A stretch of 50,723 nucleotides of DNA from contig CANQBI010000007.1 in assembly GCA_947589435.1 (NCBI GenBank), positions 1 to 50,723 on the forward strand, written 5' to 3'. The stretch comes from an uncultured Bacilli bacterium (GTDB lineage Bacteria; Bacillota_I; Bacilli_A; RF39; UBA660). This document shows positions 2,420 through 17,290 of the stretch, piece by piece. Under the pieces are notes generated by a model, which was not told the origin of the DNA, searched no databases, and saw nothing but the letters and a program-made list of their open reading frames with translations. Within the stretch, counting starts at the first letter, position 1. Each line of letters begins with the position of its first letter. A program made the translations under genes and the position numbers.

Positions 2420-2438
2420 GTTTTTATACTTTGCAAAA

Positions 2439-2470
2439 CCTCCCTATTTTCATATTTTATATTGGGGAGG
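2439..2470 (+). promoter_or_regulatory. Hairpin that can mask the ribosome binding site of the collagen-like gene
   Basis: CCTCCC at 2439-2444 is exactly complementary to GGGAGG at 2465-2470, which is the Shine-Dalgarno sequence of the ATG at 2476. A 20-base AT-rich loop separates them. If the mRNA starts upstream of 2439, the stem would hide the ribosome site. The stem is seen; the regulation is inferred. Confidence 0.45.
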
Positions 2471-2475
2471 CAAAA

Positions 2476-2988
<513 letters not shown>

Positions 2989-3085
2989 AAGTGGCACATA
3001 TAATTTTTTAGTAATATAAAATTATTTAAACAAAAAATCTAGAATATATTTTATTATAAACTAGATTTTTATATTAATTTTTATA

Positions 3086-3469
3086 TTAAAATGTAATAGT
3101 GTTAAAGCCAAGACTTTCTAAATATTTCATATTTTCTTCTGCAACTTTTTCGGCAATGTCTTTATCAAAATATGATATATACCATAAATAAGTAGTTGGG
3201 TCATCTTGTAATTGAAGCATATAATCTTGTGTTGGATTTACGGCATAGTTTCTAATTTTATTAAAACAATCCTCACATAGAAAACTATGAGTACACCATG
3301 TTAAATAGCCTTCAGTAATTTCTTTGCAACAGCCATCACAAGTGGCTACTTCTGGCAATATAGTTCCTTCTGTAGTTGTTTTTACATAATTTATTCCATT
3401 TGATAAATATTCTAATTTTTTGCCATATTTTTTTATATCTGTGGCATTAAAATCTTCCATTTTTTTCAT
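3086..3469 (-). CDS. Small cysteine-motif (putative zinc-binding) protein, element cargo
   Basis: 127 aa from the ATG at 3469, chosen because AAAGAGG precedes it. The upstream in-frame stretch is leftover recombinase-tail sequence, not part of this protein. Mid-protein cysteines CDGCC and, about 18 residues later, C-T-H-S-F-L-CEDC look like a zinc knuckle. The C-terminal half is acidic and aromatic. I do not recognise the family. It is the outermost gene on the left end of the element, a common cargo position beside a serine recombinase. Confidence 0.6.
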   Translation of the reverse strand: MKKMEDFNATDIKKYGKKLEYLSNGINYVKTTTEGTILPEVATCDGCCKEITEGYLTWCTHSFLCEDCFNKIRNYAVNPTQDYMLQLQDDPTTYLWYISYFDKDIAEKVAEENMKYLESLGFNTITF

Positions 3470-3473
3470 TTTT

Positions 3474-3582
3474 TCCTCTTTCCTTTCATCTTTATAAGTA
3501 TTAAAACTTAATATATCTATCAATTAATTTTTCTATCATTAATTTATTTGACATTTTAAAAGATAGAAATTCTTTGACTATT
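3474..3582 (-). pseudogene. Duplicated remnant of the serine recombinase 3' end
   Basis: The minus strand here encodes IVKEFLSFK then SNKLM, close to IVKEFLSLKKPNKLM in the intact recombinase. Further on, FNTYKDERK resembles QNPYKEKERK at the recombinase C-terminus. The frame is broken and about 30 bases are missing relative to 3892-4040. It indicates an earlier recombinase tail displaced by cargo insertion or recombination. Confidence 0.65.
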
Positions 3583-3589
3583 AAATCAC

Positions 3590-3886
3590 TTAGTTAAGTA
3601 AATCATCACTAAAATCGAATTTTCCTAAATCATATCCTTTTATATTACACTTTGTTATAATTTTGGTCTTTAACTTTTTAAGGTATTTATGATTATCAGT
3701 AAAATCCAATTTTTTTAAATCAAGCCCTCTAATATGATAATAAAAAATTTCTTTAAATTCATTACTAATTAATTTTTGCTCAAGTTCTATGTATAAATCA
3801 GAAATTTGTTTATTAATCTTTTTGCTTTCTTTTATTAAATTATCAATTTTAGCATTTAATTCTTTTATATTTTTATCTTCTTTCAT
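3590..3886 (-). CDS. Small coiled-coil protein with two DL-x-DF repeats, unknown function
   Basis: 98 aa. Residues 1-45 are a charged, probably coiled-coil helix. Residues ~50-98 hold two related units (GLDLKKLDFTDN and GYDLGKFDFSDD) that resemble the GLDLSKYDF units of the pentapeptide-like protein at 15692-16438 in the same element. It starts just after the recombinase stop (TAG then TATG), with its ribosome site GAAAGGA inside the recombinase end, so it is translationally coupled to the recombinase. Confidence 0.6.
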   Translation of the reverse strand: MKEDKNIKELNAKIDNLIKESKKINKQISDLYIELEQKLISNEFKEIFYYHIRGLDLKKLDFTDNHKYLKKLKTKIITKCNIKGYDLGKFDFSDDLLN

Positions 3887-3887
3887 A

Positions 3888-5519
3888 CTAATTTTTCCTT
3901 TCTTTTTCTTTATAAGGGTTTTGAACCTTATAATGTATATCTATTGTTCCATCTTCACCTATATAAATTACATCAATTAAATTTAATAACATTAATTTAT
4001 TAGGCTTTTTAAGTGATAAAAATTCTTTGACTATTTTTGAATAGTCTGGCTCTATAATATTTTTTTTGAGTATAGAATTTAAATCATCTTCATAATTTTT
4101 TAGTTTCTTTTTTTCATATTCTATTGCTTCTAATTTACTTTTAGTTACTCTTTGATATTGTTCTAAATCAATTACACCTTCTAACTTGTCATTATAAACA
4201 TTATCTATCTGTCTTTGGAGTTTTTCTATTTCTCGATTACTTTTATCAATGTTTAGTTTTAAATCAACTTGTAATTGTTTACTTTGTTTTTTATCTTTTA
4301 ATTTTTCAGCAAAATTATGACTATCAACATAATGCAGGCATTCCTCCTTGATATTTTTTAAAACTAACTTTTCTAACTTTTCGTAAATAAATCTATGAGC
4401 AGTACACACTGTTTTTCTGCTTCCGTATTTCCGATAGTAATTACAAACTGTGTAATTATTTGAACGCTCTTTATAATGTTGAATTCCAATACTATGATTA
4501 CATTCTTTGCATCTCATCATACCTTTTAAAAGATAATCATGGGTTTTTATTGTTTTATTTTTATTTGATTTAAACATTAATTGAACATTATTAAAAGTTT
4601 TCTCATCAATAATGGGTTCATGTGTATTTTTTACTATTTTCCATTGTTCTTTTGGTAGATATATTATCATTTTTGATTTATGGTTTAATCTAGTTGTTTT
4701 ACCTTGAACCATATGTCCTAGATACATTTCATTTTCAAGTATTCTTTTAATTGTATCAGGAGACCACAAATCAATAAGAGTTTTATTTAATTTCCTTTTA
4801 CTTCCTTTAATAATTGTGGGAATAGGGACTTTTTCATCAGTAAGAATTTTAGAAATATTATCAAGACTATTATTTTCCAATGCTAATTTAAATATTCTTT
4901 GTACTATTTCTTTTCCTTTGGGTTCAATTATAAAATGATAGGGGTCATCTGGATCTATTTGATATCCAAGCGGTGGCTCTCCACCTGTCCATTTTCCTAC
5001 TTTTCGATAATCAGTAAATGTTCCTCTTATTTTTTTAGAAGTTTGTCTTGCAAAGTTTTCATTACCCCAATTTATAACGGGGGCAACTTCATTACTTGGT
5101 GAATCAACAAAAGTGTCAATGTTTTCTAGTATTGAAATATAACGAACTTTATGCTCTGGAAACCATCTCTCAATATAATCATCAGTTTGAATATGGTCCC
5201 TTCCTAATCTTGATAAATCTTTAGTAATAACCATATTTACTTGTTTATTTTCTATTAATTTAATTAACTTATTAAAATCTTCTCTATCAAAAGTAGTTCC
5301 AGAAACACCATCATCTTTTAAAATAGCAACTTCTACAAATTGGCAATTAGGATATGCTTTTTTCTCTTCTTCAACGTATTTTTGACAAATTTCAATTTGG
5401 TTTCTTATACTTCGACTTTGTTCTTCCTTGCTTTTGCCTTGTTCTTCTTTAGAAAGTCTAGCATAAATAACATAACACATTACTCTAACAACACGCATAA
5501 AGTTATCATACAATTCCAA
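3888..5519 (-). CDS. Large serine recombinase (integrase/excisionase of the element)
   Basis: 543 aa. N-terminal resolvase domain with the catalytic serine in YARLS (near residue 23) and the family motifs DDGVSG, KDLSRLGRD and DDYIE. A recombinase domain follows (~residues 160-300, PPLGY), then a zinc ribbon (CKEC near 337, with later C-N and VC cysteines), and a C-terminal coiled coil (~395-475). The family cuts both strands at a dinucleotide core of attP and attB and rejoins after subunit rotation, without a homology requirement. Its gene lies next to attL, and the CTGCAA core is its likely crossover site. The start is TTG, preceded by GGAGGG. A 29-codon reading frame sits just upstream in the same direction. 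Confidence 0.93.
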   Translation of the reverse strand: MELYDNFMRVVRVMCYVIYARLSKEEQGKSKEEQSRSIRNQIEICQKYVEEEKKAYPNCQFVEVAILKDDGVSGTTFDREDFNKLIKLIENKQVNMVITKDLSRLGRDHIQTDDYIERWFPEHKVRYISILENIDTFVDSPSNEVAPVINWGNENFARQTSKKIRGTFTDYRKVGKWTGGEPPLGYQIDPDDPYHFIIEPKGKEIVQRIFKLALENNSLDNISKILTDEKVPIPTIIKGSKRKLNKTLIDLWSPDTIKRILENEMYLGHMVQGKTTRLNHKSKMIIYLPKEQWKIVKNTHEPIIDEKTFNNVQLMFKSNKNKTIKTHDYLLKGMMRCKECNHSIGIQHYKERSNNYTVCNYYRKYGSRKTVCTAHRFIYEKLEKLVLKNIKEECLHYVDSHNFAEKLKDKKQSKQLQVDLKLNIDKSNREIEKLQRQIDNVYNDKLEGVIDLEQYQRVTKSKLEAIEYEKKKLKNYEDDLNSILKKNIIEPDYSKIVKEFLSLKKPNKLMLLNLIDVIYIGEDGTIDIHYKVQNPYKEKERKN

Positions 5520-5538
5520 GCATATCCCTCCAATCTAT

Positions 5539-5628
5539 TTAATCTATAGTACAACATTCAATAAGCAGTTCTTCTATTACTTTTTGAATTGTTGGGCCAT
5601 TTTTATCAAAATGTATTACAACTTTCAT
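5539..5628 (-). CDS. 29-residue peptide preceding the serine recombinase
   Basis: Reading frame MKVVIHFDKNGPTIQKV... ending in CCTID, with a strong ribosome site (GGAGG, 5 bases before ATG). It lies 19 bases before the recombinase start, on the same strand. Its coding-like sequence and placement suggest a real gene, perhaps a small recombination directionality factor or a translational coupler. That role is inference only; 29 residues is too short for homology by eye. Confidence 0.5.
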   Translation of the reverse strand: MKVVIHFDKNGPTIQKVIEELLIECCTID

Positions 5629-5762
5629 TTAAACCTCCACTATAATTTATGTCGAGGTGAATACATTTTGACCTACTAATATTTTAGTTAAATCTTTTTA
5701 ATTTAACAGTAACCCTAATATTAATCTAACAGCTTTAAAATTAAATACAAGATTTCTAAATT

Positions 5763-6173
5763 TTAATTTCTATCTTTTATTTTAGTTAAACAAGGTGTTG
5801 AGTCATCTAATAAAATAAATGAAAGAAATAAATCTTGATATCTGGTATCTTTTATTTCATTTAAATAAGATATTGATTCATCTAATAAATCAAAGACCAA
5901 CAATGTGCCGTTATATCCAGCATCTTCGTATGTATCATCTATCTCAAGCAAAAAAAGTTTTTTAGTGGCTTGAGATAGTAATAATCTTTTAAATGGACTA
6001 GTTTTATACATTCTTTCAAACCAATTAATTAATTCCTCAAACTTTTTTATTTTGGCTATATCTCTTTCTTCCTTAATAAATTTTTTAAGAAAATAATTTA
6101 ATATTCTCATACATTCTTCAAACGTATATGTTGGAATTTCAATTTCTCTATCATATACTATAATTTTTTCCAT
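5763..6173 (-). CDS. Hypothetical element protein
   Basis: 136 aa, mostly helical and charged. It starts MEKIIVYDREIEIP and has aromatic/acidic segments (LLEIDDTYED). No signal peptide, membrane segment or catalytic motif is visible. It has its own GAAAGG ribosome site and is separated from the RecA-like gene by 180 bases containing an inverted repeat, so it may be separately transcribed. Family not recognised. Confidence 0.6.
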   Translation of the reverse strand: MEKIIVYDREIEIPTYTFEECMRILNYFLKKFIKEERDIAKIKKFEELINWFERMYKTSPFKRLLLSQATKKLFLLEIDDTYEDAGYNGTLLVFDLLDESISYLNEIKDTRYQDLFLSFILLDDSTPCLTKIKDRN

Positions 6174-6195
6174 TTTTTCTTTTCCTTTCTATTGT

Positions 6196-6225
6196 AGTTA
6201 AATACATCTATAGGTGTGTTTAACT
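6196..6225. repeat. Inverted repeat upstream of the 5763-6173 gene
   Basis: AGTTAAA ... TTTAACT arms with a partly symmetric centre. It could be an operator overlapping a TACAAT -10 on the minus strand, or a hairpin. The rest of 6226-6353 shows only another short repeat, AAACTG/CAGTTT, at about 6317-6334. Confidence 0.35.
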
Positions 6226-6353
6226 TTTTTCCCATCTTTTATTATCATCTTTTTCATAATGATAATATTTATTTTCTTTTTCTTTATATTACTTTTAGGT
6301 TTTTTGTGGCTAATATAAACTGCCTATTCAGTTTGACATTAAGTCTAGCACTT

Positions 6354-7364
6354 TTAAGATAAAAGGTTATTATAATAATTCATAACCATATCATTATATA
6401 AACATCGTTCATATTGTTGTTGTATATTTGGTAATAATTCCTTTAAACCATGTGTATTGTAAGTAGTATTATCTATAGTAATTTTAAAGTACCCCGTGCT
6501 TTGACTTATTACATTTAACTTAATCAAAGCATACACATAATTAGTAAAATTACTAATTCCTAAACCATAGACCAAATAAAATGGGATTTTTATTTCCGGC
6601 CTAATTTTATTGCTTTTAACAATTTCAAACTCTAAATTTTTACCGTTATCATTGTATTTAGTCATGTTTTTAAATTCGTTATAAACACTATTAGAAGTTA
6701 TGGGAGATACTTTAATTATAATATCCGAGTTGTATTTAACATTTTTGTTACCATATTCTTTTAATATAGTTCCTTTAGTGGTGTCAATTTTATTTCTATA
6801 TTGATTAAGTATAATAAAACATATATTTTTAGCCTTTGCTAAAGCATTATACTTATTCATAAACATTACTAAAGGTCTTGAATTATATATTGTACTATTG
6901 TCAGTAATAGACTTTCCTTTTTTTAAATCTAAAAAGCAATCATTTATTAAACAGGCAATAGAATCAATAATTATAAAAGATATTTCACTAGTGCTAATAT
7001 ACATATCAAGATATTCTTCTACCTTTTTGAAACTTGATTCTTTTAAATAGAAGAATTGCTTATTAATGTATTCTTCTAAACCAATAGAATTTACTAATTC
7101 TTTAGAAATAGAACCTTCGGCATCTAAATAAACAACATTATGTCCTTGACAACATAAATTTTTAGATATTTGTAAAGCAATAGTTGTTTTACCCATACTA
7201 CTTTCGGAAATAAACTGAACTATGTTTCCTAATTCTAAACCACCTTTAAGCAAAGTATCTAAAGCAATAATATTTGTCGGTACTATTTGACTTCCTATAT
7301 TAGAATTTTTAATTTTTTTAGATACATCTTCTAAAGTTATATTTTCCTTATTTACTCTTGCCAT
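6354..7364 (-). CDS. RecA-like recombinase/ATPase of the element
   Basis: 336 aa, close to RecA length. Residues ~25-210 are a RecA core: the lead-in IIALDTLLKGGLELGNIVQF, Walker A SESSMGKTT near residue 55, Walker B FIIIDSIA near residue 130, and the ILNQYRNKI segment where RecA has its DNA-binding loops. The C-terminus differs from bacterial RecA, as in phage UvsX and plasmid RecA paralogues. It probably forms filaments for strand exchange or replication-linked repair of the element. It follows a zinc-ribbon gene by 3 bases, so the two are cotranscribed. Confidence 0.8.
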   Translation of the reverse strand: MARVNKENITLEDVSKKIKNSNIGSQIVPTNIIALDTLLKGGLELGNIVQFISESSMGKTTIALQISKNLCCQGHNVVYLDAEGSISKELVNSIGLEEYINKQFFYLKESSFKKVEEYLDMYISTSEISFIIIDSIACLINDCFLDLKKGKSITDNSTIYNSRPLVMFMNKYNALAKAKNICFIILNQYRNKIDTTKGTILKEYGNKNVKYNSDIIIKVSPITSNSVYNEFKNMTKYNDNGKNLEFEIVKSNKIRPEIKIPFYLVYGLGISNFTNYVYALIKLNVISQSTGYFKITIDNTTYNTHGLKELLPNIQQQYERCLYNDMVMNYYNNLLS

Positions 7365-7367
7365 TTT

Positions 7368-7583
7368 TTAATTCCTTTCCGCATGGTAATTTTTAGTTAA
7401 CATTTTCTGATAACAATCATAACAAGTCATATATGGACTAGGTTTAGAAAATTTGCAATTACAAATATTGCAATAATTAAATAATTGGCCGATACTAAAT
7501 TGGTAATAGCAATTATCACAATTTTTATAGCCGTCTAATCTTTTTTCTTTTCCACAAGAACAGCAATAGCGATATTCTCTCAT
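7368..7583 (-). CDS. Small double zinc-ribbon protein
   Basis: 71 aa with eight cysteines in four pairs: CSCG, CDNC, CNIC and CYDC. This is typical of a two-ribbon nucleic-acid or protein adaptor. A strong AAAGGAGG precedes the ATG. It is directly upstream of the RecA-like gene, suggesting a shared recombination role; that is inferred from position alone. Confidence 0.7.
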   Translation of the reverse strand: MREYRYCCSCGKEKRLDGYKNCDNCYYQFSIGQLFNYCNICNCKFSKPSPYMTCYDCYQKMLTKNYHAERN

Positions 7584-7633
7584 TTTAATAACTTCCTCCT
7601 TTCAAATTATTACAACAAGAAAATGATTTTACC

Positions 7634-7662
7634 TTGACTAAAATATTTAAACATTTTATACT
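7634..7662 (+). promoter_or_regulatory. Promoter TTGACT-17-TATACT for the 7785 gene
   Basis: Near-consensus -35 and -10 with a 17-bp spacer. The ~115-base leader that follows contains an imperfect hairpin (AGCAAGAAA with TTTCCTTG) and a tandem AATGGTAAGA repeat just before the ribosome site. Confidence 0.65.
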
Positions 7663-7784
7663 ATCAAGCAAGAAACAATTATTTCCTTGTTGCTGAACTC
7701 ATCATAGCATGATAATTAATACTTAATTTAAATTAGTTTTAATGGTAAGATAATGGTAAGAATTTAATAGAAGGAGACTAAATT

Positions 7785-8873
7785 ATGGAAAGTATACAAT
7801 ATGCCCTTAATGCCAAAGATAGTGAAAAATATAATCCTAAAGTATATATTAAAAAAATTTATTATAAATGCGATGAAAATGAAAGTAATGATTTAGAAAC
7901 AGATAATACAATAGACTATACTTATGATAGTTCTACATGTTGGACATTTAAATCATGCAATCATTGTTTTATTGATAAAAGAAGTGCGTTTGATAGCATA
8001 ATAGATTTTGGAAAAAAGTTGGCAACAAAACCCGAAGAACTTAACGAAAAGGAGATTATTAATTCACCTCAAAAAAATTCTTCTTTAAACGATATTTTAG
8101 ATTATTTACATTATGTAAATAGCGAAGAGAAAAAGAACTATAGAACCTTTTTTACTGAAGTAGTAGAAGATTTTATTGACGAAAATTTTTATCCATATGC
8201 TACTTTTGATAAAGAAGATTTAATTATCAATTTTTGTGAAGATTGTATGACATTTTATATTTTATATCAAATACATATTTGGACTATAAAAATTATAAAT
8301 AATATTAATGAAAGTGTTAAAACCCAAAGTGAAAATGAAGAATTAAAGAAATTAATTAAGAATTTAGATAAGGCTTTAAATTTTGTTGATTTTAAAAGAC
8401 TTGTTTATACTATTGATTTAGATAAACTAATTTTCAACTTACCAAATAATTATTCTCCTAGTGAAGATTATAACTTTTATATAAATTTTAATTATCAAAA
8501 TGCCGACAAAAATCAAATTTTAAAATACTGTGAAATAATAAGAAGGGTATTAATCGGATACTTAATAGACATCATCCAACAAGACAATAATAATTATTTA
8601 ATTACAAAACAAAAAGTATTTTATAATTTTGAAAATAAAGAATATATTAATATTGAAACTACTAATTCTCTAATGGCTATAGTATGTAATGAGTTATTAT
8701 TTTGTATTTCATCCAATACAATGGCATTTGCAAGAATACCCTGTAAGAACCCGAATTGCACAAATTATATTAATAAAAAGGGAAGAACGGAATATTGTAA
8801 TAATCCGGAATGTCAAAATTATAGAAATAATAAAAAAAGCAATGACTTTTATCATCGCCAAAATAGCATTTAA
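7785..8873 (+). CDS. Protein with C-terminal zinc-finger-like motif, unknown function
   Basis: 362 aa. The last ~45 residues contain RIPCKNPNCTNYI and EYCNNPECQNYR, two cysteine pairs followed by a basic stretch, like CGNR or DUF6076-type fingers that close otherwise variable proteins. The rest is acidic and helical with an early CNHC motif. AAGGAG precedes the ATG. It is one of only two + genes in the element besides the fragment at its edge, and runs against the resolvase gene. It could be a DNA-binding regulator; not proven. Confidence 0.65.
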   Translation: MESIQYALNAKDSEKYNPKVYIKKIYYKCDENESNDLETDNTIDYTYDSSTCWTFKSCNHCFIDKRSAFDSIIDFGKKLATKPEELNEKEIINSPQKNSSLNDILDYLHYVNSEEKKNYRTFFTEVVEDFIDENFYPYATFDKEDLIINFCEDCMTFYILYQIHIWTIKIINNINESVKTQSENEELKKLIKNLDKALNFVDFKRLVYTIDLDKLIFNLPNNYSPSEDYNFYINFNYQNADKNQILKYCEIIRRVLIGYLIDIIQQDNNNYLITKQKVFYNFENKEYINIETTNSLMAIVCNELLFCISSNTMAFARIPCKNPNCTNYINKKGRTEYCNNPECQNYRNNKKSNDFYHRQNSI

Positions 8874-8908
8874 AAACAATAAGAAATCAAACTTATTGTT
8901 TTATTTTT
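8874..8908. terminator. Bidirectional Rho-independent terminator
   Basis: Perfect stem AAACAATAAG / CTTATTGTTT with an 8-base loop and T-runs on both strands, between two convergent genes. Confidence 0.85.
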
Positions 8909-9530
8909 GTTCAAATGTTTTAATATGGTTATAACAAGTGGTTCTACTTTTTACTCCGTAGAGTTTTTGCATTTCACATAAAGTTATTTCTTTATTTTTC
9001 CATTGTAAATAATATTTTAAAAATTTTGCATTATTTTCTAAATCTTTTTTAGTAACAATAGGCCTTCCTATTTGTTTTCCGGCTCTTCTTGCTGTTTCCA
9101 TTCCATATATAGTATTTTGTCTTTTGGCTTTATTGTCTAAATCTCCCAAAATTCCAAATAACATAATGATAAATTCATCAATAAAACTTAATTTTTCATT
9201 TCGACAATCAAATTTAAATTGTCCAATTTCTAACTTTAATTTATATTTTTTCACGATTTCTATAAGGGCAATCATATCTTGAATATTACGTGAAACTCTA
9301 TAAAAATCTGTCGCCGCCAAAACACTACCAGGGTTATTTTCTAATATAGTCATTAATTTATTAAATTCTGGTCTTTGATTTCTAGTTTTAGAGCCCGAAA
9401 CATATTCTACATATATATGTTCTCGCGGTATTCCCATATTCAAAAGTGCTTCAATTTCATAAAGTGCATCCTGTTTAGTTGTTGAACACCTTGCATATCC
9501 ATATTTCATTTTATTTTCTTCATTAATCAT
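8901..9530 (-). CDS. Small serine recombinase (resolvase/invertase family)
   Basis: About 209 aa, the usual size for Tn3/Hin-type enzymes. YGYARCSTTKQD holds the catalytic serine; EYVSGSKTRNRPEF-like and TDFYRVSRNIQDM segments follow. The C-terminal helix-turn-helix covers ~residues 165-205 (KLYGVKSRTTCYNHI). GRP at the hinge is typical. Role: resolving dimers or inverting DNA between short sites, distinct from the large integrase. The start is ambiguous: ATG at 9530 has AAAGGA upstream; an in-frame start at 9566 and one just before MKYGYARC are alternatives. Confidence 0.9.
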   Translation of the reverse strand: MINEENKMKYGYARCSTTKQDALYEIEALLNMGIPREHIYVEYVSGSKTRNQRPEFNKLMTILENNPGSVLAATDFYRVSRNIQDMIALIEIVKKYKLKLEIGQFKFDCRNEKLSFIDEFIIMLFGILGDLDNKAKRQNTIYGMETARRAGKQIGRPIVTKKDLENNAKFLKYYLQWKNKEITLCEMQKLYGVKSRTTCYNHIKTFEQK

Positions 9531-9563
9531 AAATTTATTTATTCCTTTCATAAGTCCAATGAA

Positions 9564-9589
9564 CAATCAAAGGTATATTTTTTTGATTG
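9564..9589. repeat. Inverted repeat before the resolvase gene
   Basis: CAATCAAA / TTTGATTG with a 10-base spacer, just upstream of the resolvase start. Candidate resolvase binding site or operator. Confidence 0.4.
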
Positions 9590-9683
9590 AACATTTATAT
9601 ATAAAATTACCAGTATTATCACCAATAAATAAAGTAAATAATACTGCACAATTAAGGGTTCCTTAAAATGAACGGCATATCTC

Positions 9684-9710
9684 AAACAAAAATGATACCA
9701 ATTTGTATCA
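9684..9710 (-). terminator. Terminator after the 9735-12682 operon
   Basis: TGATAC / GTATCA stem with a 6-base loop followed on the minus strand by TTTTTGTTT. Confidence 0.7.
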
Positions 9711-9734
9711 CTTTTTATTTGCTAAAATATATAA

Positions 9735-10007: not shown

Positions 10008-10116
10008 ACTTCCTTCTTTCTTTTTTAGTGCTATAATGAAACATTTTGAAAGATTCTAACAACATTTTATTTAATTTAACATATAAAACATCACCTAAAA
10101 ACAAATCTAAACACTT

Positions 10117-10395
10117 TTATACTAGCCAATCAGGTATTTTTACTTCTTCTTCATCATCATTTTTTCCTTTTGCATTTTCAATATTAGAGTTTTCATCTAA
10201 TTTAAAACTTTTCAATATTTTATAAATGTATTTTAAATTCGTTACACCATTAAAAACTGCTTCTTTTAATGCACTTCTTATTTGTTCTTCAGTAAAGCCT
10301 TCATTATTTAGCCAATCTTCTATGATTTCTTTTTCTTTTGGTGTTAAAATCCTGTTCATCTCTAATTGAAATTCATTTATAATTTCTATATTCAT
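10117..10395 (-). CDS. DnaD-type replication initiation domain protein
   Basis: 92 aa. Residues ~8-70 follow the DnaD C-terminal domain pattern: F-x-E-M-x-R-x-LTPKE, I-x-DW, then EEQIRSALKEAVFNGVTNLKYIYKIL. Full DnaD proteins carry an N-terminal winged helix; here the domain stands alone after an XRE-like gene it overlaps by 4 bases. It likely helps load the replicative helicase or restart factor on the element. The acidic tail ends IPDWLV. Confidence 0.75.
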   Translation of the reverse strand: MNIEIINEFQLEMNRILTPKEKEIIEDWLNNEGFTEEQIRSALKEAVFNGVTNLKYIYKILKSFKLDENSNIENAKGKNDDEEEVKIPDWLV

Positions 10396-10631
10396 TTAAT
10401 TTTCTCCTTTTCTTTATCATAATTAATAAGAAATAATGGATCAACTTCTAAAGCCGCGGCAACTTTTTCCAATTCTCCAAATGAAAATCTCCTTGACTTT
10501 ATATCTAAATCAAACATTAATCTTGTTTTCAAAAGATTTTTGTGTAACTTTTGTGCTAGTTGCAATTCACTTATTTTATTATCTTTGCAATAATTTAATA
10601 TATTAACTGTTATTTTATCTTTTAAATTCAT
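10392..10631 (-). CDS. XRE-family HTH protein
   Basis: 79 aa Cro/CI-type helix-turn-helix (ISELQLAQKLHKNLLKTRLMF, then the wing-proximal ELEKVAAALEVDPLFLIN). Overlaps the DnaD-domain gene, suggesting the pair acts like a split DnaD-type initiator, or that it autoregulates the operon. Both are inference. Confidence 0.7.
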   Translation of the reverse strand: MNLKDKITVNILNYCKDNKISELQLAQKLHKNLLKTRLMFDLDIKSRRFSFGELEKVAAALEVDPLFLINYDKEKEKIK

Positions 10632-10642
10632 AATTTTTCCTC

Positions 10643-10921
10643 CTAATATTCATTGGCGAATAGAATTGTTGTTGAACTTCTATCAGCTTCAGTTATTATA
10701 TAAATTTTTCCTTGGCTGATATTATATGCTTCTAAAATTCTATCACCATTTTTTATAGCCATATCATTTGCTTTAATATCTTCTTCTACTAAATTCCCCC
10801 AGCAACCCATTATGTATTTATTGAAACAATCTAGAACTTCTTTAGAAAATTTTTCATTTCTACTAATCGTATCAGCAATTCCTCTTGACATATATACATT
10901 CCCAATATTAAATTTAAGCAT
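10643..10921 (-). CDS. Conserved plasmid/phage-type small protein of unknown function
   Basis: 92 aa. The pattern W-G-N-L-V-EED...N-D-A-I-x-NGDRILEAY...GKIYIITEADRSSTTILFANEY is one I associate with short conserved proteins common on Firmicutes phages, plasmids and integrative elements. Function unknown. Overlaps the upstream PcfJ-like gene by 8 bases. Confidence 0.7.
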   Translation of the reverse strand: MLKFNIGNVYMSRGIADTISRNEKFSKEVLDCFNKYIMGCWGNLVEEDIKANDMAIKNGDRILEAYNISQGKIYIITEADRSSTTILFANEY

Positions 10922-12338
10922 TTTCTAATGACACCCTTTCTAATACTTTTTTTGTCCATGTGTTTAAAAATTTTTCTTGTTCTTTATTTATAGGTTCATT
11001 AAATTTACTTCGAGCCTGAACAACTTTTGAATTTTGTATTTCTACAGTTACTAAAGATTTATCTATATTTTCCAAACTTCTTAAAAAGTAAATGTCGCTT
11101 TCCCCGAGAGCATACCTTTTACAATAAGTAAGTAAACAATTTTTTTGACTATTTGCTTCTTGTTGCATACTTGCTACAGAAGGGGCGGGATAAATTATAT
11201 ACTTATTGTTTTGATAAATAGTTTTATTAAGTTTTTCTAATCTTATTTTGATTAATTTATCATTTTGTTCATTTTCCACTAATTTAATCAGTTTTACTAA
11301 TTTATCATGTTCTTTCATTAAATTTTCAGGATATAGTATTTTTTTATCTTTAAGGTCATATTGTAATAATCGACACATATCTAAATAGTCCAAATAATCT
11401 CTGGTATAATATTTATTTTTACTTAAAACTTTATAATAAGCAACTTCCAAATTTACATATTTTGATAATTTTTCTAAATCACTATAACCAATTAATTTAT
11501 TAATCAAATTTATATCTTCTTTTTTTAGTAATCGTAAAACTTTTAATTGTTCAAAATTAATATTATTTTTAACCATAAAAGGTAAAAATGTTTTAGATAC
11601 TCCAAAAATTTCTTGAAAATTACTTCCTTTAGTGAATTTGTCCGCATCGCTAGCAAGGTTATATAATTTCATTTTTATTAGCATCTCAAAACTATGATAA
11701 CGAGCCAATCTCAAACATTCTACAAAATCAATATAACCTGCTCTTAAAACATATTTATCTAACTGTGAATATTTAAATTCCGTATTTTTAAATAATCTTT
11801 TCAAATTAGAGGGACATACAATTCCATAAACATCTCTATAAGCCCATTTACTTCGCGCACGCCAATGAGTAAAGGTGGTATTATGAGAAACATACATATT
11901 GCCCATTTTGTTTATTAGTTGATTAGTTGTATAGTCATGGGTTTCTTCATCTTCAATAATTGTTCTCATAAACTCTGTAACATTACTTTTTAATATATTA
12001 CCATCATAATATGTACGTAGTTCAAATGTTCTAAGTATCAAAGTATTATTTACTTTATCTAATAACTGTAAATTATCTTTAAATGTATATTCTTTAAGAC
12101 GATTAGTTTTTACTAATAACTTTTGTTTACAATTAGGACATTTAATTTTGCAATCAACCTTTGTTTTAGCAATAAACTTATTACCGCAACAGGTGCAGTA
12201 GCAGTTACCGCCTTTGCTTTTTATAATCAAATTGTGAAGTTTTTTATTTTCATTTATAAATTTTTGAAATGAATTTGGGATAGTAAATTCTTTATCTGCT
12301 AGAGCGAGGATTAATCTATATTTTTTCTTGATATACAT
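10914..12338 (-). CDS. PcfJ-like protein
   Basis: 474 aa. Near the N-terminus are two cysteine pairs (CTCCG and CPNC, ~residues 48-75), a zinc ribbon. The C-terminal ~100 residues fit PcfJ: A-N-S-QKNCLLTYCKRYALGESDIYFLR, then TVEIQNSKVVQARSKFNEPI, and a closing W-TKKVL. PcfJ proteins are found with PcfK on conjugative plasmids and integrative elements; their molecular role is unsettled. It starts at the stop of the PcfK-like gene, so the two are coupled. Confidence 0.8.
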   Translation of the reverse strand: MYIKKKYRLILALADKEFTIPNSFQKFINENKKLHNLIIKSKGGNCYCTCCGNKFIAKTKVDCKIKCPNCKQKLLVKTNRLKEYTFKDNLQLLDKVNNTLILRTFELRTYYDGNILKSNVTEFMRTIIEDEETHDYTTNQLINKMGNMYVSHNTTFTHWRARSKWAYRDVYGIVCPSNLKRLFKNTEFKYSQLDKYVLRAGYIDFVECLRLARYHSFEMLIKMKLYNLASDADKFTKGSNFQEIFGVSKTFLPFMVKNNINFEQLKVLRLLKKEDINLINKLIGYSDLEKLSKYVNLEVAYYKVLSKNKYYTRDYLDYLDMCRLLQYDLKDKKILYPENLMKEHDKLVKLIKLVENEQNDKLIKIRLEKLNKTIYQNNKYIIYPAPSVASMQQEANSQKNCLLTYCKRYALGESDIYFLRSLENIDKSLVTVEIQNSKVVQARSKFNEPINKEQEKFLNTWTKKVLERVSLENA

Positions 12339-12682
12339 TATATCTCCAACTTTAACTGATTTTCATTTTTGGGTGGCTTTTCTTCATTATTTGATTTTTT
12401 AATAATTGCATTATTAATTCCTAACTCTTCATTACTTTTAGAGTAGTAGTTGATTATCCATTTAAATACTTCATTATCTTCAATAAAAGCGACATTATCA
12501 ACTGCCTTTTTTCTTGCTAAATCCTTTACATAAGTAAACATATCAGTTAGGTTTTTTTCTTCATTCATGTATAAATCTTTCATACTTGATTGTTTCATTA
12601 GAAAAACTACAATTCGTTTAAGCGATTCTCCGGGACTCTTTAATGCTAAATATTGTTCTTTTATTCTTTCATATCCATTCAT
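12338..12682 (-). CDS. PcfK-like protein (AcrIIA9-related family)
   Basis: 114 aa, on the short side for PcfK. The segment EDNEVFKWIINYYSKSNEELG corresponds to the conserved EVFxxAxxYY motif; the N-terminal half is helical (SLKRIVVFLMKQSS). PcfK-like proteins share a family with the Cas9 inhibitor AcrIIA9, but most members are not shown to inhibit Cas9. First gene of the 12682-9735 operon; AAGGAG precedes the ATG. Confidence 0.65.
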   Translation of the reverse strand: MNGYERIKEQYLALKSPGESLKRIVVFLMKQSSMKDLYMNEEKNLTDMFTYVKDLARKKAVDNVAFIEDNEVFKWIINYYSKSNEELGINNAIIKKSNNEEKPPKNENQLKLEI

Positions 12683-12751
12683 TTATCAATCTCCTTATTT
12701 AAGGCTTGTTTTTCTTATACACCTCACTTTCCACCAAACCTTAATTAAATT

Positions 12752-12782
12752 TAACCAGCCTTAAATTTAAAATGAAACCCCT
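12752..12782 (+). repeat. 31-bp direct repeat, copy 1
   Basis: TAACCAGCCTTAAATTTAAA then ATGAAACCCCT. Copy 2 at 15061-15090 differs by one indel and two substitutions. The pair flanks the 12914-14986 cargo block and this copy lies upstream of the PcfK/PcfJ operon. Confidence 0.75.
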
Positions 12783-12873
12783 GTGAAGAGATAAATACCA
12801 GTTAATGACAAATAACTGAAATAATCTGATAATTAATTTCATTATAATCGGTCTATATTGATTATTTCTTCAC

Positions 12874-12903
12874 AATAAAAGACATATAATTAAATACGTC
12901 TTT
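12874..12903 (-). terminator. Terminator after the 12914 gene
   Basis: AAAGAC / GTCTTT stem with an AT-rich partly paired loop, followed on the minus strand by TATTG. Confidence 0.55.
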
Positions 12904-12913
12904 ATTAACTTTA

Positions 12914-13252
12914 CTACTGCCTTAAAACTTCTATACATTTATTATTTTTATCACATACAACTTCAAAATAATCTCCCCAAGTAAATACTCTTTTATTATC
13001 ATTAGAAATATTTACACTTGTATGTGGTCCTAAATAACTTTCTATATATTGTAAATCCTTACCTAAAATAGAACCATTTTTATATAAATTATTTATTGAA
13101 TTTTTTTTCATACGAGCGACTTTATTTTCTAAACCAATTCTAATTATAATCATTGATACTATAATTAATATCATTCCTAATATTCTAAAGCCAGGAATTG
13201 CAACTGTTGCCATAAAGCCAAAAATTAAAAGTATTATTCCTAAAATTATCAT
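12914..13252 (-). CDS. Small membrane protein
   Basis: 112 aa from the ATG at 13252, chosen for a perfect AAAGGAGGTG site. Residues 1-45 form two hydrophobic segments (MIILGIILLIFGFMATV and ILGMILIIVSMIII), then a soluble domain of ~65 residues with a cysteine pair near the end (VVCDKNNKC). It follows the lipoprotein gene, so the two may act together at the membrane. Both soluble domains contain a similar TWG segment (VFTWGDY here, TFTWGAN in the lipoprotein). Family unknown. Confidence 0.65.
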   Translation of the reverse strand: MIILGIILLIFGFMATVAIPGFRILGMILIIVSMIIIRIGLENKVARMKKNSINNLYKNGSILGKDLQYIESYLGPHTSVNISNDNKRVFTWGDYFEVVCDKNNKCIEVLRQ

Positions 13253-13283
13253 TTTTTCACCTCCTTTATTTTTATAAAACATA

Positions 13284-13646
13284 CTATTTTAAATTAGCAC
13301 CCCAAGTAAATGTATAACCATTTAAAACGAAAGAATTAGTATTTTCATAAATAATAACTGAATCAGTTTTGTCTCCAGCATCAAAAGACCATATAATTTT
13401 TAAAAATCCATAATCTTTAGAAAATTCTACATAACAAAGTCCAATATCTTTTTCTCCATTATTAATCCAACAAGAAGGTGTAGAAATCTTTGAATTCTTT
13501 TCTGGATCATTAATAATCAATTCATAACCATTGGAACTATCCCATGCACTATGAAAAATATTTTTATCATTTGAGGTATCATCACTACAACCAGTAATTG
13601 TTAAAAACATAATTACAAGAACAAAACAAATAAATACTTTTTTCAT
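13284..13646 (-). CDS. Small lipoprotein
   Basis: 120 aa. Signal MKKVFICFVLVIMFL followed by the lipobox LTITGC; the mature protein would be lipid-anchored at Cys20. The mature part is ~100 residues, beta-rich, with two more cysteines. As mobile-element cargo it could be an immunity, entry-exclusion or superinfection protein; no motif decides this. Confidence 0.75.
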   Translation of the reverse strand: MKKVFICFVLVIMFLTITGCSDDTSNDKNIFHSAWDSSNGYELIINDPEKNSKISTPSCWINNGEKDIGLCYVEFSKDYGFLKIIWSFDAGDKTDSVIIYENTNSFVLNGYTFTWGANLK

Positions 13647-13664
13647 ACTTCTAAATTTCCTTTT

Positions 13665-14480
13665 CTAATTTCCTAATAATTTCATATATTCTTCTTTAGC
13701 AATGTTTATTTTTCCGCTATTATTAAATTTTCGATTTGGTAAAGTATTTTTAAAAGATATTTTTCTTTCTTTAAATACTTTAAAATTATCATAAAATACA
13801 TAACCTTTAGCAAAATATTGCTCCATTTCTTCATTAGTACCTGTAAATATTCCAAATGGGTATTGATACAAGCACTTGTATAATTTCCATTCATTTTCAG
13901 TTTTAGGAATATCAAATTGTTCATATCTTACAACCGTACATTCAGCAACAATGTAATCATCTTGTTTAAATAATATTTTACTTCCAGGAACTATGTAATT
14001 AGAACTGAATGGAGCATTAGTTCCATACATATGAGTTTTAGCAAATTCATCGATTGCTTTATTATCAGCATATTTAGGATTATAACTTAAAACGAAATAT
14101 TGAATATCTTTAACTTCTGATTGTATATCTTCTTCATATTCTACATAATCTTTTAATTCTATAACTTCAACATTTGTTATATTATAATCTTGTCTAAGTA
14201 ACTTTGTAAGGTTGCAATCATCTTCATAACATATTACTACATAATTTCTATTATTAATCATATCTTCTATATGACCATGTCGAATAAAATTTCTTGATTG
14301 ATATTCAAATTCTACAGTAACTCTTTCGCCATTTTTATACTCAATATCATCAATATCAAAACCTTTAGTAGATTTTGGCGAAACCAATTTAGGAAATCCA
14401 AGTTCTTTATGAATACTTGAAAATATGGCTATTACTCCTTGTTCTTGGGTGATAGGAGAATATATTTTTACCTTTTTCAA
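13665..14480 (-). CDS. Putative nuclease-fold protein with C-terminal PUA/EVE-like part
   Basis: 271 aa from a TTG at 14480, preceded by GAGGTG; the ATG at 14498 has no ribosome site. Residues ~40-110 (GFDIDDIEYKNGERVTVEFE, NFIRHGH, YVVICYEDD) match a restriction-endonuclease-like pattern I associate with uncharacterised phage and mobile-element proteins. From ~140 on, a beta-rich segment (YFVLSYNPKY, GSKILFKQDDYIVAECTVV) resembles EVE/ASCH folds that read modified bases. It is divergent from an HTH repressor. A defence nuclease is plausible but unproven; the acidic and Lys/Gln catalytic set is not clear by eye. Confidence 0.6.
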   Translation of the reverse strand: MKKVKIYSPITQEQGVIAIFSSIHKELGFPKLVSPKSTKGFDIDDIEYKNGERVTVEFEYQSRNFIRHGHIEDMINNRNYVVICYEDDCNLTKLLRQDYNITNVEVIELKDYVEYEEDIQSEVKDIQYFVLSYNPKYADNKAIDEFAKTHMYGTNAPFSSNYIVPGSKILFKQDDYIVAECTVVRYEQFDIPKTENEWKLYKCLYQYPFGIFTGTNEEMEQYFAKGYVFYDNFKVFKERKISFKNTLPNRKFNNSGKINIAKEEYMKLLGN

Positions 14481-14550
14481 TCTTAACACCTCAAGCATAT
14501 TTTATCATTTTTATTTTTAATTGTAAACCTTTCTAGTATAGGTTATATTT

Positions 14551-14580
14551 CTTCGGGGTATAATAAAAAATGCCCTGAAG
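14551..14580. promoter_or_regulatory. Operator-like inverted repeat over a TATAAT box
   Basis: CTTCGGGG / CCCTGAAG arms (one mismatch) enclose TATAAT at 14559-14564, between the divergent nuclease-like and HTH genes. Likely binding site of the HTH protein, repressing its own promoter. Confidence 0.55.
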
Positions 14581-14608
14581 TTGGTAAAATTTTATTGGGG
14601 TGATAAAA

Positions 14609-14986
14609 TTGAGAATAAATGATAAAGAAAACTATGATAAAATTAAAAACTCAATTAAAATGCACAACTTAAAAGAAATTATATCTAATCGAGGTCTTTC
14701 TATTGTTAAAGTAGGTGTAAATTCTAAAATAAGTGATACCACAATACTTAGTTACATAAATGGAAGTAAAATACCTAGTTTACCAACACTTATAAGCATG
14801 GCGGATTATTTATCTTGTAATATTGATTATTTACTTGATAGAACTAACAACCCAATGAAAGTAGATGATATAAGTAATTTGGATCCCGAGGTATCACAAT
14901 TAATTTGTAACTATTTAACTTTATCAAAAGATAATCAAAGACTTGTAAAAGGCTATATAAAAGGATTAATTGATTCAGAAAAATAA
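14609..14986 (+). CDS. XRE/CI-type transcriptional repressor
   Basis: About 125 aa. The start TTG at 14609 is favoured by GGGGTG six bases upstream; GTG at 14600 is the alternative. HTH at ~residues 20-75 (LKEIISNRGLSIVKVG, SYINGSKIPSLPTLISMADYL, the CNIDYLLDRT end typical of Cro/CI), then a helical C-terminal segment. Divergent from the nuclease-like gene, with a symmetric operator between; probably controls it. Confidence 0.85.
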   Translation: MRINDKENYDKIKNSIKMHNLKEIISNRGLSIVKVGVNSKISDTTILSYINGSKIPSLPTLISMADYLSCNIDYLLDRTNNPMKVDDISNLDPEVSQLICNYLTLSKDNQRLVKGYIKGLIDSEK

Positions 14987-14994
14987 TAATTTAT

Positions 14995-15036
14995 AAGAAG
15001 TACTAATACTAATAATTGTACTTCTTTTGTTTTTTT
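14995..15036 (+). terminator. Rho-independent terminator after the repressor gene
   Basis: Perfect 9-bp stem AAGAAGTAC / GTACTTCTT followed by TTGTTTTTTT. Confidence 0.9.
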
Positions 15037-15060
15037 AAAAATGAATTTCTAATAATAATG

Positions 15061-15090
15061 TAACAGCCTTCAATTTAAAATGCAACCCCT
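15061..15090 (+). repeat. 31-bp direct repeat, copy 2
   Basis: TAACAGCCTTCAATTTAAAA then TGCAACCCCT; near-copy of 12752-12782 in the same orientation. A weaker resemblance (TAACAGC...AAAATT) occurs around 5727. Confidence 0.75.
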
Positions 15091-15125
15091 AAATAAAAAA
15101 TAAGTTATAATGCAATATTTATAAC

Positions 15126-15692
15126 TTATTTTAATTTTGCTATTACTATTATTTGATAACCTTTTTCAACCAAATTATTATTTACTGATAATATAATGTT
15201 ACTATTTTGATTTATTTTAGAACTAATATTTTCTGTAATTTCTTCTATTTCAGCAATTCCTATATTATCATTTCCGTTAATATTAACAATATAAGAGTCT
15301 TCGATATTATATTCTTTTAATTTTTTACATAGATTTTCAATAACGGCTTCAATATTATTGCCACTTTCTAGAATTGCAATACAATCGCCATTAATATATT
15401 TCTTAATATCATCGGTAGATAGATTAATAATTCCTTTGCCTAAAAGATTATAAATAATATTGTTTGTTATTTCTATTAAATTGTTTTTAGCATAAATAAA
15501 GTTAGAAGTCTTTAATTTGTTACTTAATAATATTGGCTTATCATTAAAGATTAATATATAAGAATTAGTTGTTTTAAGTTTTATTGATACATAATCATCT
15601 TGGGTTATATCTCCAATAATGATAATAATATCATTTTTATCATTTTTAGTTATACCTTTTAAGTTTATTAAACTAATATTATTATCAAACAT
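15126..15692 (-). CDS. FtsZ C-terminal-domain-like protein without a GTPase domain
   Basis: 188 aa. From ~residue 45 it follows FtsZ from the end of the GTPase domain: SYILIFNDKPILL (FtsZ LIVIPNDRLL), NNIIYNLLGKGIINLSTDDI (FtsZ GLINLDFADV), GDCIAILESG (FtsZ SALMGIG), SYIVNINGNDNIGIAEIEEI (FtsZ VLMNITGGxxLSLYEV), and SNIILSVNNNLVEKGYQIIVIAKLK (FtsZ MIFGSVINENLKDEIVVTVIATG). The N-terminal nucleotide-binding half, including GGGTGTG, is absent, so it cannot bind GTP as FtsZ does. It could join FtsZ filaments as a non-catalytic subunit or blocker. Starts inside the stop of the upstream gene (TAATG), with AAGGAGG. Confidence 0.65.
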   Translation of the reverse strand: MFDNNISLINLKGITKNDKNDIIIIIGDITQDDYVSIKLKTTNSYILIFNDKPILLSNKLKTSNFIYAKNNLIEITNNIIYNLLGKGIINLSTDDIKKYINGDCIAILESGNNIEAVIENLCKKLKEYNIEDSYIVNINGNDNIGIAEIEEITENISSKINQNSNIILSVNNNLVEKGYQIIVIAKLK

Positions 15693-16438
15693 TACATTGC
15701 TTCCTCCTTTAAATTATCTTTATCAATGGAACCAGTTATATCTACGGAATTTCTATCAAATATTGATTCAGTTATATCAACATTATTAAAATTTCCTACA
15801 ATAGTTACACCTAATAAATTAGCACCTTGAAGTGATTTCTCACGAACTTGTTGCACATTTATAGTTGCATTTGTATTTTTTAAACAAGCATATTCTACCA
15901 CTACATCCCCAAAGTCTTTAGTAGATAAATCAAGACTTTCTAAATTAGTGCCATATAAAGATTTATTTTTTACTAATTGTGGATTAATATTAGCATTGGT
16001 ACCAGATAAATCAGCAAGTTCAATATCTACGTTATTAAAGTTCATGTTACTTAAATCTAATCCTGATAAATTAGTACCATTTAATGACTTATCATAAACA
16101 ATTTGAGGATTAACAACAGCATTTGTTCCTGTTAAAATAGTATGTTCTAATTTTACATTATCAAAATTAGCATTTGATAAATCTAATCCTTCTAAACAAG
16201 AAAATGATAAATCTTTATCCTTTATTTTTTGGGGATTAATAACTGCTCCAGTATCTTTTAAATTAGCTCCCACAATATCTACACCCGTAAAATCATATTT
16301 ACTTAAATCAAGACCTTCTAAATTACATGCTTTTATATTCTTGTCTTTTACTTTTTGGGGGTCAAAAATGACTTTATTTAAATCAAGACTTCGTAAATCC
16401 ATTCCTGCAACATTAACATTTGTAAAATCTTCTTTCAT
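15692..16438 (-). CDS. Pentapeptide-like repeat protein
   Basis: 248 aa made almost wholly of ~40-residue units: GLDLSNMNFNNVDIELADLS, GTNANINPQLV, KNKSLYGTNL, with about five copies. The A/N-L/F-x-x spacing resembles pentapeptide repeats, which form right-handed beta-helices; some mimic DNA and bind gyrase. The conserved NPQ.V.DKSL insert is not standard. No signal or membrane segment. Middle gene of a tight three-gene operon. Gyrase targeting is a guess from the fold. Confidence 0.65.
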   Translation of the reverse strand: MKEDFTNVNVAGMDLRSLDLNKVIFDPQKVKDKNIKACNLEGLDLSKYDFTGVDIVGANLKDTGAVINPQKIKDKDLSFSCLEGLDLSNANFDNVKLEHTILTGTNAVVNPQIVYDKSLNGTNLSGLDLSNMNFNNVDIELADLSGTNANINPQLVKNKSLYGTNLESLDLSTKDFGDVVVEYACLKNTNATINVQQVREKSLQGANLLGVTIVGNFNNVDITESIFDRNSVDITGSIDKDNLKEEAM

Positions 16439-16450
16439 ATATAAACTCCA

Positions 16451-17011
16451 TTAAATGTTATTAACTTTTATTGTACTAAGTGGTCCATAGCAATTTTTTT
16501 CAACAACAATTTCATAATCATTTGTATCATTAATTCTATTCATAAATAATACTATATCACAATCATTAAGTAATGATACCTTATCGATATCTTCTTCTAA
16601 TTTATGTAAAACAATTATTGGAATATTTAATATTCTTGATAAAATTTTAAATTTTCTCAAACATTCTTTAATATCACTATCACTATTTTTTATTGCCAAA
16701 CAAGAATAATCAATTACAACTAAATTTATATTATTAATTTCTTCGCGAATTTTATCTAATAAGTCATTTAATTTTAAAGATTTATTAATAATCAATGTAT
16801 TGGTGTTTATTATTTTTGCTGACTTGTCATTTGTATTTTCTAAATTAAAATAAAATATTTTTTGAGTTATTTGTGTTGATACATAATTGATAATATCAAT
16901 AGCAAAAGTTGATATATCAATATCTTGTTTACCTTCAATTAATATAAGTTCTTTTTCATTTATTCCATGAATTAAGTTGTCTAATTCATTAAAACCGGTG
17001 TTTATATTCAT
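16451..17011 (-). CDS. DnaB/RecA-fold ATPase-like protein lacking a P-loop
   Basis: 186 aa. It tracks the DnaB helicase C-terminal domain: TGFNELDNLIHGINEKELILI (DnaB TGFxxLDxLTxGLxxxDLIIV), VVIDYSCLA as Walker B, LSRILNIPIIVLHKLEEDID (DnaB LAxELNVPVIxLSQLxR), CDIVLFMNR (DADIVxFIYR), and VEKNCYGPLSTIKV (AKxRxGPTGTVxL). Where DnaB has GKT in Walker A, it reads GKQDIDIST, so ATP binding is probably lost. It is also shorter than the DnaB motor domain. Possible inhibitor or loader that mimics the helicase. First gene of the operon; AGAAAGGAAG precedes the ATG, and TATAAT lies 35-40 bases upstream. Confidence 0.65.
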   Translation of the reverse strand: MNINTGFNELDNLIHGINEKELILIEGKQDIDISTFAIDIINYVSTQITQKIFYFNLENTNDKSAKIINTNTLIINKSLKLNDLLDKIREEINNINLVVIDYSCLAIKNSDSDIKECLRKFKILSRILNIPIIVLHKLEEDIDKVSLLNDCDIVLFMNRINDTNDYEIVVEKNCYGPLSTIKVNNI

Positions 17012-17263
17012 TTATAAGCACTTCCTTTCTAGTAATTATATTGTACACCAGAATAAAAATAAATAAAAGATATCTTAAGATTTAATCAAAAAATTTTTTA
17101 TTTTTTCAAAAAAAAGTTAAAAGTAATCCCACATATTTACCCATTAATAACACTTCTAACAAACAAAAGAGATTTATTAATATAATTAACCACTTTGAAT
17201 AAATATTTAACAAAAACAACCATTTTTTAATTTGCTTTTTTCCCATAAAACCTAAAGAAAATG

Positions 17264-17290
17264 ATATGTGCCACTTTTATATATCTGCAA
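17264..17290. other. attR junction: right 15-bp arm and core CTGCAA
   Basis: ATATGTGCCACTTTT (17264-17278), a six-base spacer, then CTGCAA (17285-17290). Collagen sequence resumes at 17291 in the frame left at 2980. Confidence 0.8.

Follow-up and report, generated by a model that had tools for sequence, protein, structure and literature searches.

A probably mobile, non-phage large serine recombinase element that splits a collagen-like gene of an uncultured Bacilli bacterium at a Gly-X-Thr codon

What has separated the two halves of a collagen-like gene in an uncultured Bacilli bacterium (GTDB lineage RF39; UBA660), and what determines the place of the cut? The window, by which we mean the whole stretch of 50,723 nucleotides analyzed here, is contig C7 (CANQBI010000007.1) of a 1.44-Mb draft genome (GCA_947589435.1). 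The gene opens with the ATG at 2476, is cut at 2974-2975, and continues in the same frame of the open reading frame (ORF) list from 17290 to 17571. A sequence-only reading had proposed that a serine-recombinase element splits this gene, and the proposal holds: both same-frame halves match Pfam Collagen, and a recombinase and inverted ends lie between them (Table 1). We consider it very probable that the intervening DNA is a mobile, non-phage element whose large serine recombinase (LSR) recognizes collagen-gene DNA, the collagen repeats acting as a landing pad with many sites; comparison places its family, wherever targets were examined, in collagen-repeat codons and nowhere else.

The point of joining was read from the ends of related elements. 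A search for the arm AAAAGTGGCACAT covered the window and 18 fetched loci, and ends were compared for the window, G029 (L052), G002 (L053) and G067 (L054), where labels in G, L and C denote genomes, loci and contigs. The two arms of the window element are inverted copies of each other (84% over 32 nt), and in all four elements the dyad centre of the attachment site of the circular form (attP) falls on the dinucleotide AC, flanked first by 11-nt arms and then by GTGGCAC blocks; in the window attP, 18 of the 22 arm positions are symmetric. The left and right junctions of the window (attL and attR) share this central dinucleotide within a dyad attP, and the recombinase joins Resolvase, Recombinase and zinc-ribbon domains (Pfam), both as in large serine recombinase integrative elements. 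When the flanks are rejoined at AC, the empty sites read GGA GAT AC.C GGC (window), GGA GAT AC.T GGT (G029), GGT CCA AC.A GGT (G002) and GGA GCT AC.A GGT (G067), all of them Gly-X-Thr-Gly with the register unbroken. The window join continues as GGA GAT ACC GGC CCT (GDT-GPT), with Gly-X-Y continuous, giving a protein of 259 aa (166 + 93 codons) and a core-to-core element length of 14,316 bp. The sequence-only reading was thus right about in-frame restoration and wrong about core and length, as it had joined 2980 to 17291 across a CTGCAA string to obtain 261 aa. CTGCAA does occur at both junctions, where it arises as the palindromic arms abut the core; the relatives' ends place the dyad centre on AC (2974-2975 and 17290-17291), and the 261-aa join carries an extra Ala-Thr (GDT-AT-GPT) that breaks the triplet register. 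The CTGCAA crossover was rejected because the corresponding string TATG is absent from every collagen ORF listed for the loci compared, and because the AC core fits the related ends.

Does the same geometry recur elsewhere? A scan of a genome collection with a three-LSR alignment returned 37 loci, and targets were read for the 18 with at least 54% identity (54-100%), which include a short fragment at 76% (L105); 15 of the 18 belong to uncultured Bacilli from "Lapin" samples, read here as rabbit. L070, L072 and L081 are G029, G002 and G067 again, and L079 and L105, from one bin, were paired as one element, so that merging left 18 distinct elements, the window included. Each of these elements runs into a collagen-like frame at one end or both, and there AC forms the first two bases of a Thr codon (attL in 17 loci, attR in 13). 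L085 is counted by attR only, because its match to the arm pattern at L085:12212 lies outside the collagen frame and was dropped. Judged from these sequences, a two-half gene geometry that recurs at one or both ends of every distinct element of the clade is not a product of chance. Eleven elements lie with both ends on a single contig, and all of them rejoin in frame, with Gly-X-Y unbroken over the 32 nt tested in ten; in the exception, L082, Asp replaces one Gly. Stops close 12 of the 13 tails, at lengths of 6 to 292 codons, and the remaining tail leaves its contig. In the tree the 18 LSRs form one clade (100/100), as do the eight that are encoded in the same direction as the host gene (100/100). 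A further, 19th element, whose LSR is 48% identical, shows by eye an AC junction of the same kind in a collagen-like tail, and beside the outgroup LSRs L067-L069 (38-41%) the collagen-ORF filter found no collagen ORF.

The insertion point, by sequence comparison, is the AC of the Thr codon in GGNNNN-AC-NGGNCC (Gly-X-Thr-Gly-Pro). Counting the A of the core as 0, the eleven two-ended empty sites share an invariant G at -6, the AC core, GG at +3/+4 and C at +7, with C at +6 in ten of eleven; part of this invariance is the codon pattern itself. The motif GGNNNNACNGGNCC has 27 copies in the host genome, 23 of which lie in the split gene (12 in the left half, 11 in the right half) and four elsewhere; all 23 run in gene orientation, and the backwards control gives three. 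With 23 of 27 copies in the split gene, Gly-X-Thr-Gly-Pro codons are therefore a many-copy target, and one whose DNA reads as partly palindromic. Such a codon-repeat landing site, if true, would explain the repeated splitting, the constant codon phase and the many sites within one gene class. It exposes the collagen-like genes of these gut bacteria to repeated insertion of such elements, and yields a set of pairs of attP and empty host site (attB) for a recombinase whose target is short and well defined.

A second, distantly related LSR family with longer proteins (~640-700 aa) also sits in collagen-like genes, again with AC in a Thr codon and with arms that end in CGATTG. It was found in L083, L057 and G014 (L056/L131), and with one end only in L128, L129 and L132; L083 holds both LSR families within one gene. 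Eight second-family matches of at least 47% were obtained in 148 genomes. The right end was located in five (G020, G087:C18, G010, G014, G110) and was not matched by the pattern in G106, G087:C6 and G008.

Comparison of loci bears on whether the element still travels. The window and G029 elements are 98.2% identical over 9.9 kb and 97.4% over 3.7 kb, against 82.9% over 2.7 kb for the flanking genes, and they occupy different Gly-X-Thr codons of an orthologous gene, six codons before its stop in G029 and 93 in the window. Because a copy of 97-98% identity occupies another codon in a species with 83% identical flanks, we conclude that the element moves; it looks mobile rather than domesticated. 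The expectation that sibling genomes would hold an uninterrupted gene was borne out, since six relatives (G008, G009, G022, G025, G028, G003) have an intact in-frame gene with the cysteine desulfurase gene as its direct neighbor, as in the window, and with these genes present the split-gene interpretation came through the comparison that could have overturned it. The window gene order on both sides is found only in G008, where the 486-aa neighbor ORF follows; in the other five that ORF lies beyond the desulfurase gene, and in L058, L060 and L066 the collagen-like gene leaves the contig.

Several observations weigh against a mobile element aimed at collagen repeats. Neither an empty site nor a circle was seen for the window element in its own species, a generic attP circle pattern had no matches in viral contigs, and about 0.7 kb of the element (12849-13576) is unmatched in the G029 copy. 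The mirror symmetry of attB is weak, at 5 of 15 positions in the window and 5 to 11 of 15 across eleven sites. Transfer machinery was not recognized among the element ORFs, and the L082 recombinase (identical to G400) is decayed. The count of targets covers the 18 loci of at least 54% identity out of 37, the other 19 being at 26-39%, and the relatives are all draft metagenome bins or drafts.

What kind of element is this? Its 21 ORFs were scanned against Pfam and PHROGs and include repressors, a PcfJ-like gene and replication-type proteins (Table 1). A prophage was rejected, as no match to capsid, tail, terminase or packaging families turned up among the 21 ORFs (PHROGs, Pfam). Nor is it classed as an integrative and conjugative element, as Pfam found no relaxase, coupling protein or secretion genes among them, only PcfJ/PcfK-like proteins. 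A PADLOC scan of ten of the 21 ORFs gave one weak match. Compared with viral contigs, the PcfJ-like protein has no relatives and the recombinase has one, at 25%; among the matches listed, the recombinase is 25-32% identical to phage and 28-33% to plasmid proteins. In the 148 genomes the closest relative of PcfJ, at 99%, is in G029, and no further one exceeds 39%. For two small products only guesses can be offered, namely that the cysteine-containing protein at the left end is an accessory factor and that the mini-ORF is a directionality factor or a leader peptide. The mini-ORF, of a 28-38-aa type (MKVVIHF...IEELL), stands directly before the LSR in the window; a search of 17 related loci found counterparts in nine, L115 among them, and a similar string forms the end of a longer ORF in L071.

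Table 1. Coordinates of the split gene, its attachment sites and the element genes in the window, with sites of the second recombinase family in other loci.
Feature	Position	Strand	Basis
Collagen-like gene promoter, conserved: ACTTTGCA - 15 nt - CATATTTTA (-10 of CATANNNTA type)	2428..2459	+	20-region alignment
5' part of collagen-like gene (N-terminal domain + Gly-X-Y)	2476..2988	+	ORF; Pfam Collagen 4e-16; relatives in genus
attL core dinucleotide AC, first two bases of Thr codon (Gly-Asp-Thr)	2974..2975	+	comparison with related ends
Left attP arm (TGCAAATGGTTAAAAGTGGCACATAT...), inverted copy of right arm	2976..3007	+	inverted-repeat search, related ends
Small cysteine-containing protein	3086..3523	-	ORF; RING match below cutoff; similar protein (by eye) at same place in L071
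98-aa protein without family match	3590..3886	-	ORF, Pfam, PHROGs
Large serine recombinase (LSR, integrase)	3888..5519	-	Pfam PF07508, PF00239, PF13408; PHROG integrase 1.5e-88; tree clade 100/100
29-aa mini-ORF (MKVVIHF...) directly upstream of recombinase	5539..5628	-	counterparts in 9/17 related loci searched
RecA/UvsX-like ATPase	6354..7364	-	Pfam, PHROGs
Second, small serine recombinase (resolvase type)	8901..9566	-	Pfam, PHROGs
DnaD/DnaB_2-like replication protein	10117..10395	-	Pfam, PHROGs
PcfJ-like protein	10914..12338	-	PF14284 2.5e-27
PcfK-like protein, next after PcfJ-like	12338-12682		PF14058 5.5e-6, at its cut-off
Cro/C1-type repressor	14600..14986	+	Pfam, PHROGs
Pentapeptide-repeat protein	15692..16438	-	Pfam
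DnaB_C-like ATPase	16451..17011	-	Pfam, PHROGs
Right attP arm (...ATATGTGCCACTTTTATATATCTGCA)	17258..17289	+	inverted-repeat search, related ends
attR core dinucleotide AC, first two bases of Thr codon, Gly-Pro-Thr next	17290..17291	+	comparison with related ends
3' part of collagen-like gene, 93 codons + stop; Gly-X-Y as far as GDTGPAAA	17290..17571	+	Pfam Collagen
Second-family sites	L083:1629-4740; L057:4889-9136; L056:9177 with L131:3581

Most two-ended elements of the family are smaller: nine of the 11 are compact, at 3.1-3.5 kb (two lengths measured directly, the rest taken from end positions). Their cargo is one coiled-coil protein gene beside the LSR, with a secreted-looking, signal-like N-terminus (by eye), in ten loci (L053, L074, L075, L077, L078, L080, L081, L082, L083, L084). 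The cargo promoters resemble, by eye, the ordinary TTTACA/TATAAT type, and four of the seven cargo proteins scanned have InlB-repeat-type matches, weak and below cutoff, near the C-terminus. Replication-type genes are present in larger relatives (DnaB_C and RecA-like in L071; primase/helicase-like and SSB-like, by eye, in L115/L126, with L126 from G413), so that the compact elements may be reduced forms.

In the mechanism that we propose, the recombinase would insert the circular element at one of about two dozen sites in the collagen-like gene; as the AC core is non-palindromic, it should fix a single orientation relative to the gene. While inserted, the element would truncate the host gene, usually at a stop in the element end; in the window, the 5' frame past the core reads T-A-N-G-stop within the element. 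Precise excision would occur when a directionality factor is present, restoring the 259 aa with Gly-X-Y unbroken, and this excision is possibly regulated.

Parts of this scheme have precedents. The published account of gin, in gerE of Bacillus cereus ATCC10987, describes a non-phage element with serine recombinases, an inverted-repeat att site with a central dinucleotide and precise rejoining; it takes identical copies in two strains as recent transfer, and reports excision during sporulation with GirC and GirX from a single site in a regulator gene (PMC5595907). Like gin as described there, the window element is non-phage, carries serine recombinases, splits a gene and has a dyad att site with a central dinucleotide and, by prediction, precise rejoining; unlike gin, its target is a codon motif repeated along collagen-like genes, and its excision is only predicted. 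SP-beta of B. subtilis is described as an LSR prophage in the spore-envelope gene spsM, with an att overlap, precise excision that restores the gene and a known accessory factor, SprB (PMC4191935). The window element resembles that description in the interruption of a gene by a large serine recombinase, in the att overlap and in the predicted precise, gene-restoring excision, and differs from it in having no detected phage structural genes and many possible sites. Multi-targeting LSRs are described as related recombinases that enter several sites or genes with a short motif around the core dinucleotide; their clade is mostly DUF4368, and the worked example has a TT core in T/A-rich sequence (PMC10083194). 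As in that description, recombinases related to one another enter several sites and genes around a core dinucleotide here; unlike in it, the target is a protein-repeat codon pattern in one gene class, and the word "collagen" is absent from the main text of that paper. Among the matches listed in a search of titles and abstract starts in the open-licence literature, none reports recombinase elements in collagen-like genes.

Could the element be a developmental switch? The skin element splits sigK, and its excision during sporulation restores the gene. By analogy with skin, SP-beta and gin, excision in the mother cell during sporulation would rebuild a spore-surface gene here. This is compatible with a mobile element landing in collagen repeats, and we hold it to be unlikely, although it is the best placed of the alternatives. 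In its favor, Spo0A_C and SpoIVA are each encoded in 35 of 38 genus genomes, and the predicted rejoining is precise and in frame. A promoter also speaks for it: 20 collagen-like upstream regions, that of the window included, share ACTTTNCA (with variants), a spacer of 15 or 16 nt and CATANNNTA, the last in 20 of 20 and at the same place. This differs from the type before spoIVA, where 20 upstream regions have GTATAAA (with variants), 13 or 14 nt and then CATAGCATT in 19 and CATATCATT in one. We take CATANNNTA to be presumably a sigma-K -10 element, and the spoIVA type to be presumably sigma-E; on that reading the collagen-like gene could be expressed late in the mother cell, and a switch stays conceivable. 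The window promoter, which directly precedes a GGGGAGG ribosome-binding site, scores 26.5 bits with a motif model trained partly on this site. The next site, 24669 (+), scores 17.5 bits, lies within another gene and is the sole other above the lowest training score of 15.3 bits; shuffles gave one site of at least 18 bits in five.

Against a switch, the best collagen-type match inside the element reaches 12.9 bits, under the lowest training score; a spoIVA-type scan, run without a shuffle control, gave 25058 (+) with 13.5 bits, outside the element, and 17268 (-) with 13.1 bits, overlapping the right arm. Neither of the two scans found in the window a sporulation-type promoter clearly before the recombinase or a small element gene. 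Compact members lack an obvious directionality-factor gene, the mini-ORF excepted, and the use of different sites in two species is mobile-element-like. Tails of up to 292 codons that remain in frame suit a switch, but the insertions may simply be recent, and in L074 the tail has just 20 codons. The idea of a spore-surface host gene, raised in the sequence-only reading, gains from the sporulation genes and the 20 promoters, and the element looks mobile, not domesticated; a spore-surface role with sporulation-time excision is possible. More broadly, one may imagine that at least two LSR families use the AC of a partly palindromic, many-copy Gly-X-Thr-Gly-Pro attB, that collagen-like spore-surface genes are thereby permanent landing pads and that mother-cell excision rebuilds the stalk, as a widespread insert-and-restore system on the spore surface of gut Bacilli; we regard this as doubtful. 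The landing-site model also opens to direct test whether gut spore-formers restore surface genes during sporulation. As a separate observation, spoIVA of G014 lies in two pieces (C19:10396-10788 and C7:13040-14152; L150, L151). The gene of a different LSR (C7:11439-12959) stops some 60 nt short of the 3' piece, and inverted arms CAAAAGTGATACCC and GGGTATCACTTTT flank the cut (by eye). Here a further element seems to have interrupted a sporulation gene in the manner of skin, provided that the two contigs are linked as we infer.

Would insertion serve to vary the surface? Hopping among Gly-X-Thr repeats could set stalk length, with the compact members adding a coiled-coil surface protein. The insertion codons do differ between the window and G029, ten compact elements carry that cargo, and in 14 of 17 attL frames a stop follows within five codons of the core; this stop, however, may be incidental, since it shares sequence with the arm expected to bind the recombinase (TTAAAAGTGGCAC). 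Coiled-coil cargo is missing from the window element, and we find such a device distinctly improbable.

A single ancestral insertion, with the surrounding repeats later reshuffled by homologous recombination, might also produce differing positions in the window and G029, as each site is part of a Gly-Asp-Thr triplet and repeats are open to recombination. An element divergence of 2-3%, far under a flank divergence of 17%, led us to reject this as the sole cause, and several different collagen-like genes are hit in other genomes; we rate any such history as very improbable. An assembly chimera in the window, conceivable in a draft bin as repeats break assemblies, is scarcely credible when the same ends and core recur in other assemblies and the flank gene order matches relatives.

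Some minor observations concern the host genes and their neighbors. In L054/L081 and L078, from two genomes, the N-terminal collagen-like part is split at a similar place into two ORFs, with a stop after VTIREV or VTIRQV and a restart at MNNEINYVLDF. At 112-1191 (-) the window encodes a glycosyltransferase-TPR fusion; in many relatives this gene and collagen-like genes share one fetched locus. That its product glycosylates the Thr-rich stalk is a guess. The product of the gene at 23644-31002 (-), 2452 aa long, looks secreted and contains a string, HESAHNID, that resembles, by eye, a metallopeptidase motif.

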